A DNA stretch of 40,571 nt. It comes from a virus. Under the pieces are notes generated by a model. It saw nothing but the letters and a program-made list of their open reading frames with translations, was not told the DNA's origin and made no database searches. The translations under genes and the position numbers were made by a program. The stretch covers positions 1 to 40,571 of IMG/VR virus record IMGVR_UViG_3300012351_000002. One strand, 5' to 3'. Numbering within the stretch: the first letter of the stretch is position 1; every line of letters begins with the position of its first letter. Shown here piece after piece: positions 4,066 through 27,621 of the stretch.

Positions 4066-6355
4066 TGAGATCGAAATCAAGGTCGATGTTGACAAAGTCA
4101 ACGCTGATCCTCTAGAGGCCGCATTCAAGCGAATTATCGATTCCGGCCAGAAGATGGGCTCTGGGGTCGGTCAGGGATCCGACCGGGCACGCGACGCTCT
4201 TGGTCGACTTGTCAAAACTAGCAACGACAGCGGCGATGCGGTACAAACCGCTACGGGATTCTTCGGCAACCTTCGCTCCAAGCTCATGGATCTTATGCCG
4301 TCAGCCGATGACGCCAAGAGTGCCCTCGCCAGTCTTGGTGGCGGAATGGCGTACCTGTCGTACGCTGTGATTCCCGCTGTAGCTGCGGGCCTGCTCGCGC
4401 TGGGACCCGCCCTCCTGGCCGTCGGAGGAATCGCCGGAGCAGCGACCACCGCGATTGCTGGCATGGGCGTGGCATTCGCCACCCTGGAGATCGGTCTCGG
4501 TGGCGTAGGGGATGCTTGGACCGCCTACACTCAGCAGGCCAAAACCGGTGGTGGAAGTTCAGCGGCGGCAGGTCAGGCCGCTGCTGCCGCCGCTGAAGCA
4601 GTCAAGAACGCTGAGTATTCGCTGACGCAAGCCAAGCTTGCCGCAACCCAAGCCTCCAAGGATTTGACCAAGGCGCGCGAAGACGAGCGCCTCCGGCTGA
4701 TCAATCTCTCCCTTTCGCTGCGTAGTCAGCGATTCGCCGAGGCGGATGCGGCCAAGAGTGTGCGCGAAGCTGAGGACAAGCTCAACGCGGCACGCGCGTA
4801 CGGCGTGGATAGCGCCATCAAGGATGCTCAGGATCAGCTCGATCGGGCAAAGCTTGCCTACGATGTCGAGCACGAGAAGATGAACGAGCTCAACGCCGAT
4901 CAGAAAAAGACCGCCAAGGATGGCGTAGAAGGCTCAGATCAGGTCACGGCAGCGAAGAAGCGGCAGTCGGACGCCAATCATCAAGTGGCGATGGCGGTCC
5001 AGTCCCTGGCCGATGCGCAGCGCGCGGCAGCGACTTCGGCAGGCGGTGCAGCAGGAGGTGTGAACGCCTTCAATGAGGCGATGAAGAAGCTCTCACCGAA
5101 TGCTCAGGCGTTCGTCCGGGAGATGATCTCGCTGTCGGAACGCTTCAAGGTCATCAAGATGCAGGTGCAGGACAAGCTGTTCGCCGGTCTTGACGTGACG
5201 CTGGAGAATCTCGCGCAGAAGTGGCTTCCGAAGCTCGGGCCGATGCTCGGCGGCATGGCCGACTCCCTGAACAAGGTAGCCAGGGGCATTGCCGGAGCGC
5301 TCGGCAATCCCGACTTCATGAAGGGCATGCAGACGGCTAGTAAGGCTTTTTCGGAATTCCTGACGTCCGATCTCAGCCCGGCCATCGATCATGTCATTCA
5401 TGCGTTCGGTGAGCTGGCGGGGGGGTCGACAGAACCGTTCAAGATCATCGGGGGTTGGATCAAGGACATCGCCGAGAAGTTCGATAAGTGGATCACTTCC
5501 GCATCCAAGTCCGGTCAGCTTAAGACCTTCATGCACGAGGCCGCCGACACGCTAAAGACCATTTGGGATATCGGTAAGAAAGCTTTGGGTATCGTCGGCC
5601 AGTTCATCGCCATTCTTTTTCCCGGTTCGAAGAAGAAGGGCGGCTCGACGCTCGACGCCATCGACGAAGCATTGGGAAACATCTCAAATTGGCTGAAAGA
5701 TCCAAAGAATCAGAAGCAGATAAAGGCCATTGAAGACGGCATCTTCCAATGGGCCGACGCCTTCGGTGAGGTGATCGGTATGGTCAATGATCTCAGGGGT
5801 TTGATCATTCCGGTCCTGAAACTCATTCAGGGCGTTATCTGGCTTCAACTCGTCCCGTTGAAGCTCCTAAAGGGTGTCTGGGATATGATCATCATATCCA
5901 TTAAATGGATTGGCAAGCACGGCCCCGGAATGTGGGACGGTATCAAGAACGCTTTCAGGTCGGCGATGAACTGGATCATCGACAGGTGGAATTCGCTTCA
6001 GTTCACCCTGCCCTCGATCAATATCTTCGGGAATGAGATTGGTGGTGGAACGATCGGCACGAGCCACATCAATCATATGGCTTCCGGTGGTGCCGGGGGC
6101 GGCATGGCGTGGGTTGGCGAGAATGGTCCTGAGCGTGTCCGGCTTCCCTACGGTTCCTCGGTGATGACCGCCGGAGATAGCGCACGCGCCCGCCAGACCG
6201 GCGGCCAGGGGGTCTCGGGCACGCTCCGGCTGTCGGTGGATGGATCCACCGAACGTGGCCTGATCCGTGAACTCCTCCGGCTCTTGCGCGTAGAGATCGC
6301 CACCTATCACAGCGGTAACGTGCAGCGTGCTCTTGGACAGGGGGCCGCGGCCTGA
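4055..6355 (+). CDS. Tape measure protein
   Basis: 766 residues, preceded by a strong AAGGAGG site. It sets tail length and would span the tube lumen. Residues about 98-150 are strongly hydrophobic (VIPAVAAGLLALGP and AGAATTAIAGMG). Residues about 170-310 are a charged alanine-rich coiled coil. A second hydrophobic stretch lies near 580-620. The C-terminus carries the MAWVGENGPERVRLPYGSSV pattern common at the end of actinophage tape measures. At this length the tail is short for a siphovirus. The start overlaps the frameshifted chaperone by 11 bases, which favours coupled translation. Confidence 0.92.
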   Translation: MSGNEIEIKVDVDKVNADPLEAAFKRIIDSGQKMGSGVGQGSDRARDALGRLVKTSNDSGDAVQTATGFFGNLRSKLMDLMPSADDAKSALASLGGGMAYLSYAVIPAVAAGLLALGPALLAVGGIAGAATTAIAGMGVAFATLEIGLGGVGDAWTAYTQQAKTGGGSSAAAGQAAAAAAEAVKNAEYSLTQAKLAATQASKDLTKAREDERLRLINLSLSLRSQRFAEADAAKSVREAEDKLNAARAYGVDSAIKDAQDQLDRAKLAYDVEHEKMNELNADQKKTAKDGVEGSDQVTAAKKRQSDANHQVAMAVQSLADAQRAAATSAGGAAGGVNAFNEAMKKLSPNAQAFVREMISLSERFKVIKMQVQDKLFAGLDVTLENLAQKWLPKLGPMLGGMADSLNKVARGIAGALGNPDFMKGMQTASKAFSEFLTSDLSPAIDHVIHAFGELAGGSTEPFKIIGGWIKDIAEKFDKWITSASKSGQLKTFMHEAADTLKTIWDIGKKALGIVGQFIAILFPGSKKKGGSTLDAIDEALGNISNWLKDPKNQKQIKAIEDGIFQWADAFGEVIGMVNDLRGLIIPVLKLIQGVIWLQLVPLKLLKGVWDMIIISIKWIGKHGPGMWDGIKNAFRSAMNWIIDRWNSLQFTLPSINIFGNEIGGGTIGTSHINHMASGGAGGGMAWVGENGPERVRLPYGSSVMTAGDSARARQTGGQGVSGTLRLSVDGSTERGLIRELLRLLRVEIATYHSGNVQRALGQGAAA

Positions 6356-14388: not shown

Positions 14389-14760
14389 TCAGTTGGAACG
14401 GAAGTACGAGGTGATGTCGTTGTTGAAGGCCGTACTCATCGCGCCCCTGCTGAGCGGATAGATGTGTCCCGGCGTGGTCTCGCACGAGCCCCCGTCGTAC
14501 ACGAACCAGTCGCTCAGCGAATTGTTGATGATGTAGGAGGCCTTGTTCCTGCTGGCCGTGGAGAGCTGGTAGCACACGGTCTGAGCATGCCCGGTCACCG
14601 ATGCCCATGCCAGGAAGCCGGTCCCGTCCGCGTTGTCGTACCAGCAGATATAGCCGGAAGGGCAGGCCGTGTCCGCGAACGCTGCCCCCGGTTCGCATCC
14701 CTGATCCAGTCCGACGGCCAGAAGGGCGACGGCGAGCAACGAGGTGATCTTCTTGAACAT
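14389..14760 (-). CDS. Secreted protein of the peptidase inhibitor I36 type
   Basis: 123 residues. It has a clear signal peptide (MFKKITSLLAVALLAVGL, cleavage probably after AFA at residue 29). The mature part reads CPSGYICWYDNADGTGF, with further cysteines at 63 and 93 and the KASYIINNSLSDWFVY segment. This is the beta/gamma-crystallin-like pattern of family I36, whose type member is the Streptomyces metalloproteinase inhibitor SMPI. AGGAG lies upstream. It would act outside the cell and is not needed to build a virion, so it is likely cargo. It is the last gene before a terminator, and a papain-like hydrolase gene precedes it. Actual inhibitory activity is not shown. Confidence 0.7.
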   Translation of the reverse strand: MFKKITSLLAVALLAVGLDQGCEPGAAFADTACPSGYICWYDNADGTGFLAWASVTGHAQTVCYQLSTASRNKASYIINNSLSDWFVYDGGSCETTPGHIYPLSRGAMSTAFNNDITSYFRSN

Positions 14761-14768
14761 GGATTCTC

Positions 14769-15356
14769 CTAGGGCTTGATGACTTGAGTACCGGGCAGCG
14801 ACAGCAGGCGCCCGTACAGCGCCGATGGCGTGACGTCCTGCGGAAGCCTGCCATCCGTGAACATGTGGAACCCGGCATCGCTGAGCGCCTGGTCGGCCAG
14901 TTGCGAGCAGATCATGTGCTCGCTGGAGGTCACGTACTCCCGGACCGACAGCGGATCGATACCAAGCCGGAGCGCGGTCAGCGCCGCGTAGTCCAGGAAG
15001 GAATACGGCGTGCCGAGATAGCTCACAGCCGCTGCGGCAACTCGCAGCGCCATGCCGTTGTAACCGGCGACGTATGCGGGTCGGAGGTAGGCGTAATCCT
15101 TCGTCCAGTAGTCCGCGGTCAGCTCGACATCCTCGGCGCCGCCCGGCATGGCCTGCATGAGCCGGGGACCCGCGCGGAGGACGCCGGGAGTGCCGTACAT
15201 GTCCTTGGCTGCTTGCACCACCACACCGACATGGTGCGGGTAGCCCGGCTGGCCGAGGAACGTCTGACCGGCCAGGATCAGCAGGTCCGCGCTCCACGGC
15301 GTGACATGCCGGGCGAACATGATGTCCCCCGGCAGCAGGTCGGCGAGGGCGCTCAC
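14769..15356 (-). CDS. Permuted papain-like (YiiX/NlpC-P60-type) hydrolase
   Basis: 195 residues from a GTG at 15356 that overlaps the upstream stop (GTGA) and has GGAGG just before it. The order LLPGDIMFAR, then PHHVGVVVQA, then YLGTPYSFLDYAAL, then MICSQLADQAL is that of circularly permuted papain-fold enzymes: the histidine of HHVG comes before the nucleophile cysteine of ICSQL. Such enzymes cut amide or ester bonds in lipids, peptides or cell-wall material. No signal peptide is seen, so it probably acts in the cell or as a delivered protein. Confidence 0.65.
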   Translation of the reverse strand: MSALADLLPGDIMFARHVTPWSADLLILAGQTFLGQPGYPHHVGVVVQAAKDMYGTPGVLRAGPRLMQAMPGGAEDVELTADYWTKDYAYLRPAYVAGYNGMALRVAAAAVSYLGTPYSFLDYAALTALRLGIDPLSVREYVTSSEHMICSQLADQALSDAGFHMFTDGRLPQDVTPSALYGRLLSLPGTQVIKP

Positions 15357-15565
15357 GCCTCCGTCCAGCCGGGAAGCGGATCGTACGGTTCTGGCACCCT
15401 GACCGGACTGGACAGGAGGCCAGAACCGCACGTCTTGCAACGCAAGCCTTGCGGCCACTGAACGACTCCCGGCGCGATGATCGGGATCGGGATGATCGTG
15501 TCCGCCGAAGACTCGCATTCATCGTTCACGCACTGCACTCGCAGATGTTTCGCTCGATCGCTCAT
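15353..15565 (-). CDS. Zinc-ribbon protein
   Basis: 70 residues. The ATG at 15565 has GAGGGGATGAG upstream. Two cysteine pairs (CVNDEC and CKTC) flank a 30-residue hydrophobic middle (IIPIPIIAPGVVQW), a zinc-ribbon layout. Its function is unknown. It is translationally coupled to the papain-like hydrolase gene. Confidence 0.6.
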   Translation of the reverse strand: MSDRAKHLRVQCVNDECESSADTIIPIPIIAPGVVQWPQGLRCKTCGSGLLSSPVRVPEPYDPLPGWTEA

Positions 15566-16110: not shown

Positions 16111-16683
16111 TCAAGCGATTGTGGCGGACCAGAGCCACGCCTCGAAGTCGCCCTTGATCGTCTTGCCGGTCCGGGTGAGCGTCAGGCGCTTGCCGACGAG
16201 CTGGATCCGGTTCGACAACTTCGCGTCCCGGATGGCCGCCTTGATGGCCGTGAGCTGCGCACCGGAGGCGAACACGCCCCGGAGACCTTCGTCCGAGTCG
16301 ATGCCTTTGTCCAGGAGCTCCGCCTGACTGAGCCGGTAGTCCGTCTGGAGCACGAACACCGTATCCATGCACGGACTGAGCGGCTTGCCGTCCGGTCCGG
16401 TGGTCTTCTCGGTGGGCTTTCCGTCAGCCCCCCAGAACTTCAGGGCTCCGACTCCGCCTGCCTTGTAGAAGCGGGACTGCCGGTCTTCCGGCGCCTTGGT
16501 GATGACGCCGGTCCGCGACGTGCCGACACCCATTGTCTTGTCGAACAGCGAGACGAGTTTCTCGCCACCGAACAGGGGGTCGTACCCCTCGTTGTTCCCG
16601 GTGAGCTGATCGGTCTGCGGAGCGTTGCTCTGCGGTCCGGCCGCGGCTACTGCCGCCGCTGCCTCAGCAAATGCACTGGTCAT
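16111..16683 (-). CDS. Conserved actinophage protein, possible single-strand DNA-binding role
   Basis: 190 residues. After an alanine-rich start it reads LFGGEKLVSLFDKTMGVGT, a QSRFYKAGGVGALKFWG segment and DTVFVLQTDYRL, and ends VGKRLTLTRTGKTIKGDFEA then WLWSATIA. Strand-rich proteins with this order are frequent in Streptomyces phages near recombination and helicase genes, and I suspect an OB-like fold. I cannot see a diagnostic ssDNA-binding motif. It stands alone between two hairpins, suggesting its own level of expression. Confidence 0.6.
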   Translation of the reverse strand: MTSAFAEAAAAVAAAGPQSNAPQTDQLTGNNEGYDPLFGGEKLVSLFDKTMGVGTSRTGVITKAPEDRQSRFYKAGGVGALKFWGADGKPTEKTTGPDGKPLSPCMDTVFVLQTDYRLSQAELLDKGIDSDEGLRGVFASGAQLTAIKAAIRDAKLSNRIQLVGKRLTLTRTGKTIKGDFEAWLWSATIA

Positions 16684-16724
16684 GCGTGGTTCCCTTCGAA
16701 AGTATCTAGAGGTATTCGGTTGGT

Positions 16725-16778
16725 GGTGAGAAGCGGTACAGGTCCCGACAATCGACGGTTAATGTACCGCTTCTCACC
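16725..16778 (-). terminator. Perfect 16-bp stem-loop after the tRNA-like cluster
   Basis: GGTGAGAAGCGGTACA (16725-16740) is exactly complementary to 16763-16778, with a 22-nt loop. On the minus strand it follows the tRNA-like cluster and lies 41 bp before the start at 16683. It may end the tRNA transcript or control the next gene. There is no clear T-run. Confidence 0.55.
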
Positions 16779-16883
16779 GGCTAGATCAGAGCTGGCGCTC
16801 CGATCTTAGCGGTATTGCAGTCTTTCCGTTGGCCCTCCGCTCATGATCGGAGCACTTGTCCTCATGGCGAACCACAGAACCGC
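16779..16883. other. Non-coding stretch next to the tRNA-like cluster
   Basis: I see no convincing gene, ribosome binding site or repeat here. Together with the hairpin at 16725-16778 and the tRNA-like elements to 17395 it makes a gene-free interval of about 760 bases (16684-17447). Confidence 0.5.
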
Positions 16884-16945
16884 GCCACCGCCGGGAGTCG
16901 AACCCGGCCTAACGCCTTCCGGCTTCCCATACCGGGTACGGTGGC
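16884..16945 (-). tRNA. tRNA-like element, probably Pro(GGG), apparently lacking a D-arm
   Basis: Only 62 nt long. GCCACCG and CGGTGGC form a perfect 7-bp acceptor stem. CCGGG-TTCGACT-CCCGG is a canonical T-arm. The only 5-bp stem with a 7-nt loop and a U33 equivalent is CCGGT-ATGGGAA-GCCGG, giving anticodon GGG. Only three bases lie between acceptor and anticodon stem, so no D-arm remains, and the variable region is 11 nt. CCA is not encoded. An alternative fold with a small D-arm leaves no proper anticodon loop. Confidence 0.5.
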
Positions 16946-17099
16946 ATATTCAGTTGTGATGCACTGGCCTAACCTCCTACCAGCATGCGAGACCCGCGAA
17001 ATTATGAGCCATGCAGCCCGGTCGCCGCGTGCTCCGCCAGCCTTCATCTGCATTGACGGTCCGTTCGGTTCCCGGTGCCTCGCTTCCCTTGCTGTGCGC

Positions 17100-17188
17100 G
17101 ATCGAGGGAGGAATCGAACCTCCAGCCCCTCGCGGCTCAACCCCGGTCAAGAGGCGAGTCCCGCTCGGCTGACCCAGCAGACACGATC
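17100..17188 (-). tRNA. tRNA-like element with canonical T-arm, isotype unresolved
   Basis: GGAGG-TTCGATT-CCTCC is a perfect T-arm. The following CTCGATC pairs with GATCGTG 89 nt upstream at six of seven positions, giving an acceptor stem. The body contains AGCCGAGCGG, like a D-loop, and CCTCTTGACC, where anticodons CTT, TGA or GAC can be drawn, but none gives a full 5-bp stem with a 7-nt loop. The length fits a long-variable-arm tRNA or a degenerate copy. Confidence 0.4.
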
Positions 17189-17235
17189 TGTTGCCCGAAC
17201 TCAAGCGCTGACTAGGCGCCGAATTAGTATTCCGT

Positions 17236-17297
17236 GCCCCTGCCGGGAATCGAACCCGGCGCGTCGCCTTGCGTGCGGCAACATGCCATTTGGGGGC
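17236..17297 (-). tRNA. tRNA-like element with canonical T-arm, short body
   Basis: CCGGG-TTCGATT-CCCGG is a perfect T-arm, and GGGGC after it pairs with GCCCC 62 nt upstream (five pairs). The body holds GGC-ATGTT-GCC and the pair GTTGCC/GGCGAC around an 8-nt loop, which do not match normal D and anticodon arms. Like its neighbour at 16884-16945 it is about 10 nt too short for a normal tRNA. Isotype not assignable. Confidence 0.4.
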
Positions 17298-17315
17298 TTA
17301 CCAGGCAGAGAACGG

Positions 17316-17395
17316 GATCCGGGAGGGACTTGCACCCTCTAGCCAAAATCGCTAATCACTTGAAACCGAATCAGTTCCGGCAGCGCTACCGGTTC
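17316..17395 (-). ncRNA. tRNA-like element nearest the promoter, with outer 12-bp clamp
   Basis: GAGGG-TGCAAGT-CCCTC resembles a T-arm with a non-standard loop. GAACCGG and CCGGATC form an acceptor-like stem (six of seven pairs). Outside it, GGCAGAGAGCGG (17411-17400) pairs with CCGTTCTCTGCC (17315-17304), a 12-bp stem that clamps the element. It is first in the transcript from the promoter at 17423-17451. No standard anticodon arm could be drawn. Confidence 0.35.
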
Positions 17396-17422
17396 CGTTC
17401 CGCTCTCTGCCTTACGAGAGGA

Positions 17423-17456
17423 ACTCTACGCGTCCTCAGTCCTGAAGTCAACCGGA
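17423..17456 (-). promoter_or_regulatory. Promoter for the tRNA-like cluster, with operator-like site
   Basis: Minus strand TTGACT (17451-17446), exactly 17 bp, TAGAGT (17428-17423). The dyad family site CTCAGT-N10-ACCGGA (17435-17456), one half perfect, covers the -35 and spacer. It overlaps the 3' end of the upstream gene. Confidence 0.6.
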
Positions 17457-17708
17457 TTCGCCAAGATCTTTGAGAAGTTCCTTCGAGACGCGCCAGACGT
17501 CCCCGTCCGGCACCCATGGCCAGACCTTCACGCGAAGGCCGAAGCACGAGTCATCGAAGACCGGATCGCGTCCGTGCAGGTTGCTCATGTCGCACAGAGC
17601 GTCCCAGGTCGGCCGCGACATGCGGAACTCGAAGATGAAGCGTTCCTCCGGCAGGATCGCCACGTACTGCTCGGCGATGTGCTTCATGAGATCCCAGCCC
17701 TGCCTCAT
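17448..17708 (-). CDS. Hypothetical protein, 86 residues
   Basis: The ATG at 17708 overlaps the upstream stop (ATGA), which is why a longer reading frame is not used. It contains MKHIAEQYVAILPEERFIFE, then MSRPTWDALCDM and VPDGDVWRVSKEL. It is acidic and probably alpha/beta. No family is recognised. It is coupled to the RecB-like nuclease, suggesting a DNA-metabolism or regulatory link by context only. Confidence 0.6.
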   Translation of the reverse strand: MRQGWDLMKHIAEQYVAILPEERFIFEFRMSRPTWDALCDMSNLHGRDPVFDDSCFGLRVKVWPWVPDGDVWRVSKELLKDLGESG

Positions 17709-18682
17709 GCCCGCACCCACGCCGACCTGCTCTCGCGCTCCGTGCTCTTGCCGAAGCTGCGCAGCTTGATGATCCGAGCGGCGAGCTGCGCGGCCTCCCA
17801 CCCGTTGACCAAATCGGCGCGCTCCAGTCTGGCCGGGGCACCGTCGGACGGCACGTGCAGGATGACGCCTTCCGTCAGATCGACGTAGTTCACCGGTCCC
17901 GGCTCGTAGCTCTGGCCACCATCCGGTGACCACTGATCAGTGAGCATCCACTCCGCCCACGCGTAGGTGGCGAGCTGAGCATCGACGGTCATCCACGAGT
18001 AGAAGGGGGTCGCCTTCGTCTTCAGATCGGCCATCAGCAGGCGTCCAGTCTTCTCCTCACGCAGCACATCGTCGAACTTGCCGACGGCGCCAACGATGGT
18101 GTTCCGGACGATTCGCTCCGACAGGCGGGGCACGCGCTTCAGCCCGGCATCGGCCAGAAGGGCCTCCGCGTCCACCACGCACGCCTGAATGCCCGGCGTG
18201 CCGATGAGCTGATCGGTCTTGCCGCGGTGCTCCCAGGCGGTGTGCCGGTTGGTGCCCCGCTGCGCGGCGGCGCCCGCTTTGGCGACCTGCTTCGCCCGGC
18301 CGATGAGCGAGAGTTCCTGCTTCTTCTGATCGTGCGGCGCTCCCGCGAGCGCCTCCTTCAGCTCCGGGTAATCGCGTAGAAGCTCGAAGTTCACTCCCGC
18401 ATCTCTCGCCTGATGCACCAGAAGAACAAGCTCCTCATACAGCTCCGGCGAGAGCGCGAGCCCGATCAGCCCCATCCCCTGCTCCCATACGTTCAGCGCC
18501 CGGGTGTCCTCGAAGGCGCCGACCAAGTTGGTCACCCGGGTGATCCCCCGCGGGACGTAGTTTCCTCCCGATTTCGTGCCCTGTTCTCCCGGCAGGAGCG
18601 GCATGTGGTACCGGCCGCGGTAAGTGCGGCCGAAGACCTTCTCGGCGGTCTCATTCGCCTGCATGAACAGTTGATCAGTCAC
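17705..18682 (-). CDS. PD-(D/E)XK exonuclease of the RecB/Cas4-like family
   Basis: 325 residues. GTNRH (143-147), GKFDDVL (201-207) and LLMADLKTK (215-223) give the acid ... D-x-K core of the RecB/Cas4-like nuclease fold. The four cysteines of a Cas4 iron-sulfur cluster are absent; only one cysteine is seen. Such nucleases in phages usually process DNA ends for recombination or replication. It overlaps the upstream gene by 8 bp and lies in the same leftward unit as the helicase at 19634-21517. I am confident in the fold, less so in the exact role. Confidence 0.75.
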   Translation of the reverse strand: MTDQLFMQANETAEKVFGRTYRGRYHMPLLPGEQGTKSGGNYVPRGITRVTNLVGAFEDTRALNVWEQGMGLIGLALSPELYEELVLLVHQARDAGVNFELLRDYPELKEALAGAPHDQKKQELSLIGRAKQVAKAGAAAQRGTNRHTAWEHRGKTDQLIGTPGIQACVVDAEALLADAGLKRVPRLSERIVRNTIVGAVGKFDDVLREEKTGRLLMADLKTKATPFYSWMTVDAQLATYAWAEWMLTDQWSPDGGQSYEPGPVNYVDLTEGVILHVPSDGAPARLERADLVNGWEAAQLAARIIKLRSFGKSTERESRSAWVRA

Positions 18683-26887: not shown

Positions 26888-26904
26888 TAGGTCATGTGAT
26901 ACGG

Positions 26905-26939
26905 AAAGGGCACCGCTCCTGTCCGAGCGGTGCCCTTTT
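26905..26939 (+). terminator. Rho-independent terminator after the primase/helicase gene
   Basis: Perfect 14-bp stem AAAGGGCACCGCTC (26905-26918) with 26925-26938, six-base loop, and a T-run (26936-26939). It is the most canonical terminator in the window. Confidence 0.9.
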
Positions 26940-26958
26940 ATCGAGAGGTGGAACAACC

Positions 26959-27621
26959 ATGTCCGATATTACCCCCTTCAATTTCGAGGGTCACGGCCTG
27001 CGCTGGACCATGATCGAGGGACAGCCCTGGTTCGCCATCGTGGATGTGTGCAAGGTGCTGGGCATCATCAACCCGAGCATGGTCGGCGATCGGCTTGACT
27101 CCGATGACCTCAGCGCGATTGGACTCATCGACTCGATGGGTCGTGAGCAGCGGACTCGCATCACCAACGAGTCGGGGCTGTATGAGTTGATCATCAGATC
27201 GAACAAGCCGGACGCCAAGCGCTTCCGGCGCTGGATCACTTCTGAGGTACTCCCTGCCCTGCGGCGTACTGGCTCGTACTCGATCATGCCGGTCGAGCCG
27301 GAGGACGACCTCGATCTGATGGTCAAGGCTATCGGTCATATCAGGGAGCATCGCCAGCGTATCGCCAGCCTGGAGAGCGGTCAGCGCGAGCTTGCCGCGA
27401 AGGTGAGTGCGTCGGCAGGCGAGTACGACGAGTTCACCACGCTGGCGTACGCGAAGCTGAACGGTCTGCCGACCGACCGGGTGAGCTGCCAGAAGCACGG
27501 GTTGCGTGCGACCGGGCTCATGAAGCAGAGGGGCGGTGCTCCACGCAAGGTGCAGGACGCGACTTTCGGGGCAATCAACGTGTATCCGCTGGGGATCCTG
27601 CACGAGACGGCGGGCGGGTAA
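26959..27621 (+). CDS. BRO-N / antirepressor-type protein
   Basis: 220 residues. The ATG at 26959 is preferred because an earlier in-frame ATG lies within the terminator and GAGAGGTGG lies just upstream. Residues 1-105 match the BRO-N domain: FNFEGHGLRWTMIEGQPWFA, then DVCKVLGI, NESGLYELIIRS, and FRRWITSEVLPALRRTGSY. The C-terminal part is a helical DNA-binding-like region (SLESGQRELAAKV, CQKHGLRATGLMKQ). Such proteins antagonise phage repressors or bind DNA to control replication. It lies between the terminator and the iteron array. Confidence 0.82.
   Translation: MSDITPFNFEGHGLRWTMIEGQPWFAIVDVCKVLGIINPSMVGDRLDSDDLSAIGLIDSMGREQRTRITNESGLYELIIRSNKPDAKRFRRWITSEVLPALRRTGSYSIMPVEPEDDLDLMVKAIGHIREHRQRIASLESGQRELAAKVSASAGEYDEFTTLAYAKLNGLPTDRVSCQKHGLRATGLMKQRGGAPRKVQDATFGAINVYPLGILHETAGG

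Follow-up and report, generated by a model that had tools for sequence, protein, structure and literature searches.

Can a phage maintain a cluster of transfer RNA (tRNA)-like RNAs that do not decode? The tRNAs of phages are usually explained either as a supply for particular codons or as replacements for tRNAs cut at the anticodon, and RNAs reduced to the end that is recognized by EF-Tu, processing enzymes and acceptor-directed toxins could play neither of these roles. The question is raised by the IMG/VR virus record IMGVR_UViG_3300012351_000002, which was analyzed as a whole (40,571 bases, referred to here as the window). The record contains genes for head, packaging, helicase, primase-polymerase and exonuclease functions, and in the gap between the exonuclease gene and the gene of a 190-residue protein, both on the minus strand, lies an array of four tRNA-like units, E1 to E4 (Table 1). 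A preliminary description had regarded the units as possible functional minimal tRNAs, decoys for host anticodon nucleases or decaying genes. From sequence comparison, we conclude that the array and its counterparts in related uncultured phages are maintained non-decoding tRNA mimics, neither decaying genes nor decoding tRNAs. The units are probably imitations or decoys rather than parts of the translation machinery.

Table 1. The array and its flanking genes, from upstream to downstream on the minus strand (nt, nucleotides; bp, base pairs; aa, amino acids; ncRNA, noncoding RNA).
Feature	Positions	Strand	Description and basis
Upstream gene, exonuclease	17705..18682	-	phrog_466, E 1.3e-42; query for finding relatives
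Promoter-like site	17423..17451	-	TTGACT-17-TAGAGT, sigma-70-like, head of array
E1 outer element	17303..17412	-	13-nt helix, arms 17400-17412/17303-17315; inverted repeat and minimum-energy fold
E1 tRNA-like unit, 57 nt	17316..17372	-	acceptor 7/7, T-stem 5/5
E2 tRNA-like unit, 62 nt	17236..17297	-	acceptor 5/7, T-stem 5/5
E3 tRNA-like unit, 89 nt	17100..17188	-	acceptor 6/7, T-stem 5/5; covarying family, 7 phages
ncRNA-A	16962..17096	-	structured, not tRNA-like, AGCAAGGGAAG...GCCGGTAGGTGGTTAGGCCGGTG; BLAST between clusters, 8-phage alignment, covariation
E4 tRNA-like unit, 62 nt	16884..16945	-	acceptor 7/7 (GCCACCG/CGGTGGC), T-stem 5/5
Perfect 16-bp hairpin	16725..16778	-	arms 16725-16740/16763-16778; inverted repeat between array and SSB-like gene
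Downstream gene, 190 aa	16111..16683	-	phrog_1911; weak structural match to an SSB/OB-like fold

The resemblance to tRNA lies in the acceptor stem and T-arm, which are canonical in E1 (acceptor GATTCGG/CCGGATC, T-loop TGCAAGT) and E4, nearly so in E3 and poorly so in E2. The good T-arms of the preliminary description were therefore found in all four units, and its good acceptor stems hold except for the imperfect one of E2. In E1, the outer helix encloses one hairpin plus the nested unit, whose middle is a single 4-bp hairpin with a 7-nt loop. E2 has one hairpin with an 8-nt loop and no canonical D-arm, the middle of E3 is long and irregular, and E4 has two tiny hairpins with neither a canonical D-arm nor a 7-nt anticodon loop. 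The existence of two units of about 62 nt (E2 and E4) and the missing D-arm of E4 were thus confirmed. The 'Pro(GGG)' identity given to E4 is unsupported, because its GGG is the 3' strand of the hairpin CCC-GGTAT-GGG, a small stem of three pairs. The single promoter placed ahead of all units was recovered as the only sigma-70-like site in 16600-17700 (shuffle mean 0.2).

Across the whole window, ARAGORN found no tRNA gene and Rfam gave no match at the gathering threshold; the tRNA family RF00005 had no match in 16650-17500 even at E 10. Two of the checks proposed beforehand, ARAGORN and covariance models, both gave zero tRNAs and no complete cloverleaf in the window. Rfam families considered for the array RNAs on the strength of weak matches, at E up to 10, were rejected as all below threshold: tRNA-Sec (RF01852) reached 20.7, 17.8 and 15.6 bits against a gathering threshold of 47, and mascRNA/menRNA (RF01684) reached 18.5 bits in E4 and 17.3 bits in E2 (17236-17282) against 42.5.

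Related uncultured phages were gathered as 26 loci by helicase alignment, exonuclease alignments and DNA patterns; labels such as L003 and L005 denote these loci or contigs, and L003, the first of them, was reached via the downstream protein. The order of exonuclease, array and SSB-like gene is kept in related phages, most of which have a promoter of the same type 3' of the exonuclease, followed by small structured RNAs. The promoter of the window resembles in sequence that of L004, at the same place, and a similar sequence is likewise shared among L005, L009, L090, L091 and L096. L003 carries a similar yet different set of units at the matching place (fold z -3.75). Three relatives (L003, L004 and L009) pass the RF00005 gathering threshold at 47-50 bits, and the anticodon loops of such relatives are interrupted or closed.

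Could modules of this kind arise by chance? A strict scanner required a 5-bp T-stem around a T-loop next to a 7-nt strand able to pair with a segment 12-100 nt upstream. It detected 24 modules of T-arm plus acceptor on the sense strand of 17 cluster regions (16,894 bases), four of them contributed by the window. The mean over 200 dinucleotide shuffles of these regions was 0.17 modules, with a maximum of 2; their antisense strand contained one module, and the remainder of the same loci contained nine in 389,950 strand-bases. With 24 modules observed and 0.17 expected, a chance origin is ruled out.

The top halves are thus real, and what they lack is the decoding loop. We curated 43 units from 21 contigs, including the window, by scanner and by eye, and asked whether each could form an anticodon arm in the correct place (a 5-bp arm with at least four pairs, a 7-nt loop, U33 and a purine at 37). 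Such an arm was possible in only three units (window E3, L100 and L104), and in E1, E2 and E4 none was found. In a control, 36 of the 38 annotated tRNAs in a stretch of Streptomyces phage Jay2Jay passed the same test. Furthermore, the three passing units form one family, whose covarying structure uses pairs other than the anticodon arm, so that E3 forms the arm only in a register that conflicts with the family structure. The fraction 3/43 is a biased frequency, because the units were picked by hand and scanner and some were left out (L006 12088-12165, L096 5272-5339, L091 5902-5957 and a doubtful L104 unit); also outside the 43 are units truncated at the edges of contigs L090 and L106, as well as the L111 array, a near-identical copy of that of L091, and the E3 family is represented seven times among the 43.

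A less biased test is the presence of U33 in the calls that ARAGORN itself makes. In the 26 family loci, only 2 of 13 calls had U33, and both were spurious: that in L003 takes a T-arm for an anticodon arm and that in L023 lies inside a helicase match. The controls gave U33 in 28 of 29 calls from other loci sharing the helicase and in 36 of 36 from Jay2Jay (64/65 together). These counts, along with the anticodon-arm test, exclude ordinary tRNAs missed by the finder. In place of the anticodon arm, the units have GNRA-capped arms (L006, L101), a closed loop (L009), 3-nt loops (L008, L091), a long hairpin (the 94-nt unit of L003) or only a 16-nt linker (the 47-nt unit of L104). A separate arrangement is seen in L116 (5290-5461), where a normal acceptor, D-arm and T-arm surround a 141-nt middle, the anticodon arm carrying an insertion of approximately 100 nt.

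Might some of these be real but interrupted tRNAs, able to decode because an insert after nucleotide 38 of a normal anticodon loop is either excised or tolerated? In a test devised after L003 and L092 had been seen, 3 of the 43 units had a 5-bp stem and a U33/R37/A38 loop with an insert after 38 (0.12 expected in shuffles), the inserts being 13 nt in window E3, 24 nt in L003 and 2 nt in L092, and no unit had an insert before 32. When inserts were allowed, ARAGORN read L003 as Lys(UUU), L092 as Ser(AGA) and L097 as Ala(CGC). However, it assigned different anticodons (Phe and Pro) to the homologous units of L006 and L101, and the shortest units (47-62 nt) have no anticodon arm to interrupt. Moreover, removal of such short tRNA inserts is not known from bacteria, and we consider this explanation very unlikely. 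We give still less credence, indeed next to none, to decoding minimal tRNAs of the mitochondrial D-armless type. The 62-nt units with a good acceptor and T-arm would suit it, but mitochondrial D-armless tRNAs retain the anticodon arm, which is missing in E2 and E4; for these two, the proposal is refuted unless RNA editing is invoked. The functional minimal tRNAs suggested earlier are therefore unlikely as decoders, the canonical anticodon arm being absent in 40 of the 43 units.

If the units do not decode, are they simply decaying tRNA genes that the phage no longer needs? The acceptor mismatches of E2, the great variety between phages and the failure of every window unit to pass as a normal tRNA would be consistent with decay, but the pattern of substitutions argues strongly against it. 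When E3 was aligned with units of six other phages (L100, L104, L108, L113, L114 and L117), 14 of the 26 pairs showed two-sided changes and 94.9% of cells were paired, compared with only 36-51% in slid structures; none of 500 shuffles reached any of the five measures. A covariance model built from the six other phages, with the window excluded, detected E3 in 344 kb of sequence with a score of 53.7 bits (E 2.3e-10). The same leave-one-out model gave 24.8 bits on E4 (E 0.0033) and 19.8 bits on the stretch over E2 (E 0.058), and Jay2Jay tRNAs scored at most 16.7 bits. Similarly, E4 and its L005 homologue share 19 pairs, with six compensated and none broken, and have middle sequence in common. 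Overall, homologues of E1, E2 and E4 proved few or absent. Compensated acceptor and T-stem pairs were also seen in the sets L101/L006, L097/L099 and L095/L096/L097/L108, which comprise two to four sequences each without shuffle controls, one of them with some acceptor cells broken or gapped.

These results indicate that acceptor and T-stems were kept through compensatory changes, and, together with the 24 intact modules, they leave the decay suggested in the preliminary description highly improbable. Random decay would also hardly remove the decoding loop so uniformly, from 40 of the 43 units, while leaving their top halves intact, nor would it conserve middle sequences in E4/L005 and in the E3 family. 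The 3' context is likewise regular: CG follows the discriminator in 38 of the 43 units (background CG 10.7%), although some of these tails were spotted by eye prior to the count. ACC follows only one unit (L097 3604-3685), and therefore CCA would need to be added.

What might such RNAs do? RNase P and the tRNA 3'-end enzymes recognize the stacked acceptor and T-arm, and for this reason we infer that a single transcript would be cut by these host enzymes. Each unit keeps the top half of a tRNA, the acceptor stacked on the T-arm with CCA unencoded, and has its anticodon arm lost, closed or replaced, often with the D-arm gone too. Processed units would carry CCA, be stable and imitate tRNA for factors that read the acceptor/T half. 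During infection they would shield genuine tRNAs, for instance against immune toxins acting on the tRNA 3' end by modification or cleavage. Toxins that read the acceptor end have been published, which makes decoy action plausible: FaRel2 is reported to inspect the acceptor stem (PMC11559606), MenT to extend acceptor ends (PMC10435456, PMC11541572) and Cas12a3 to cut tRNA tails (PMC12851939). Decoys for factors or toxins reading the acceptor/T half are thus a plausible leading mechanism. Of the earlier suggestions, that of decoys survives as an idea, but anticodon nucleases are disfavored as the target, because the anticodon is the very part that the units lack. The combined reading, a family-specific array of maintained non-decoding tRNA-like RNAs acting as acceptor/T-half decoys, is one that we hold tentatively, with confidence a little short of even.

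Several observations weigh against this combined reading. The acceptor of E2 has two mismatches, and the folding stability of the 566-nt array region as a whole is ordinary compared with shuffles (z -0.79). Recognizable anticodon loops are retained in a few units (L003 4757-4850, L092 3864-3935). G3:U70 occurs in only 1 of the 43 units, so charging as a minihelix by the alanyl-tRNA synthetase AlaRS is not suggested. Finally, a search of genome contigs with the window exonuclease found no relative that would point to a host, and therefore no particular toxin can be named.

A bolder reading is that the arrays represent a new class of counter-defense RNA, in which promoter-driven, anticodon-less mimics soak up immune effectors that act on the acceptor end. 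These may include toxSAS pyrophosphorylases, MenT/AbiEii nucleotidyltransferases and tail-cutting nucleases, and a second conserved RNA may belong to the same transcript. We regard this class as doubtful. RNAs that retain just the acceptor/T half would show that phages exploit the shape of tRNA itself, and the array offers a direct test of whether RNA decoys counter acceptor-end toxins. Since the window units are invisible to ARAGORN and Rfam, such arrays are possibly commoner than known.

The second conserved RNA, ncRNA-A, lies downstream of E3 and ahead of E4 in the window and is first after the promoter in L090, L096, L104, L106 and L108; it is also present in L004 (11118-11266) and L005 (10856-11012). 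Nine of its 20 pairs show two-sided changes, including covariation of the closing helix; none of 500 shuffles reached four of the five measures, and one of 500 reached the fifth. It has no Rfam match at gathering. An alignment made without the window had two misaligned rows and was left unused, and pattern matches in L102, L103 and L105 lie in coding DNA and were dismissed as chance.

Could ncRNA-A and the variable arms be the working parts, with the tRNA top halves serving only as a device for processing the transcript and protecting its ends? In this proposal, those parts possibly act as an extended leader for the SSB-like gene downstream. The array does lie in sense directly ahead of that gene in the relatives containing both, the variable arms are structured (those of L101/L006, for example, are capped by GNRA loops and show compensated pairs), and an RNA that is not tRNA-like is conserved within the same arrays. 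On the other hand, neither complementarity to a target nor a protein partner emerged, with no search aimed at either, the middles differ so greatly among units that one common cargo function is not obvious, and in L007 the strict scanner found zero units between the two genes. We therefore judge this scaffold role possible, though on the whole unlikely, and return to the acceptor/T-half decoys as the preferred reading.

Other elements recur in the arrays. The spacer CACAACTGAAT, or a close variant, is found at 16948-16959 (minus strand) of the window and in L005, L009, L091, L096, L097 and L108, and, recurring between RNA units, it is possibly a processing site. A AGTCCGTCA...TAGAGCGGAC element lies between tRNA-like units in L004 (11931-11987), L005 (11095-11160) and L091 (5700-5758). 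A long hairpin around GATCCACGGGAAGGG closely follows the promoter in L092 (3566-3649), L101 (5222-5305) and L008 (10263-10282). Near the position equivalent to the 16-bp hairpin of the window, L003, L113, L114, L116 and L117 have a helix of the GAGGGGCGG...CCGCCCCTC type.

How does the array compare with known systems? The mascRNA/menRNA family also consists of short tRNA-like RNAs with an acceptor and T-arm and the other arms reduced, but these are single-copy 3' ends of animal long RNAs, and E2 and E4 fall under the family threshold. The gammaherpesvirus MHV68 likewise carries a group of tRNA-like RNAs that are reportedly not charged; it differs in being an animal virus whose RNAs are linked to microRNA precursors. 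GOLLD and ROOL are large structured noncoding RNAs, often near tRNA genes in phages, that are not tRNA-like; the window array has no Rfam match at gathering. In the open-access literature, which excludes most subscription-journal papers, we found no published description of anticodon-less tRNA-like arrays in phages. The nearest published idea found is the proposal of van den Berg et al. 2023 (PMC10264068) that loop mutations allow phage tRNAs to escape anticodon nucleases; the authors describe mycobacteriophage tRNA clusters with anticodon loops unlike those of host tRNAs, and their text does not use the word decoy. Both cases involve clusters of tRNA-type genes in phages with an altered anticodon region, but the loops they describe are mutated, whereas in the present units the loop is closed, replaced or missing altogether, and the window units escape ARAGORN. 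The array is kin to known phage tRNA arrays and viral tRNA-like RNAs.

The likely host of the window phage, as judged from its exonuclease, is an actinobacterium, because the isolated phages with exonuclease relatives are mostly phages of Streptomyces, Mycobacterium, Gordonia and Corynebacterium, although these relatives are distant (25-31% identity in the 30 of 139 matches listed). Isolated phages gave no DNA match to the window and no protein match to the downstream gene, for which a structure search ranked SSB folds first without significance (E 0.055). Corynebacterium phage EmiRose has the matching gene order, but by eye its gap contains no array. Two candidates from a pattern search of genome contigs, L120 and L121, were rejected as chance, their exonuclease, helicase and downstream gene matches all being non-significant.

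Some minor features of these genomes were also observed. An open reading frame of 161 aa without a family (17448-17933, minus strand) runs from inside the exonuclease gene to the promoter of the window; in L004 and L005, the promoter directly follows the exonuclease. In L099, a stretch of approximately 900 bases (4679-5600) splits the exonuclease gene in an intein-like manner. Elsewhere in the window, the C-terminal part of the protein encoded at 14389-15522 (minus strand) matches peptidase inhibitor I36 (E 1.6e-07), and an anti-repressor Ant-like protein at 26896-27621 (plus strand; phrog_130, E 1.5e-45) hints at a temperate life style.
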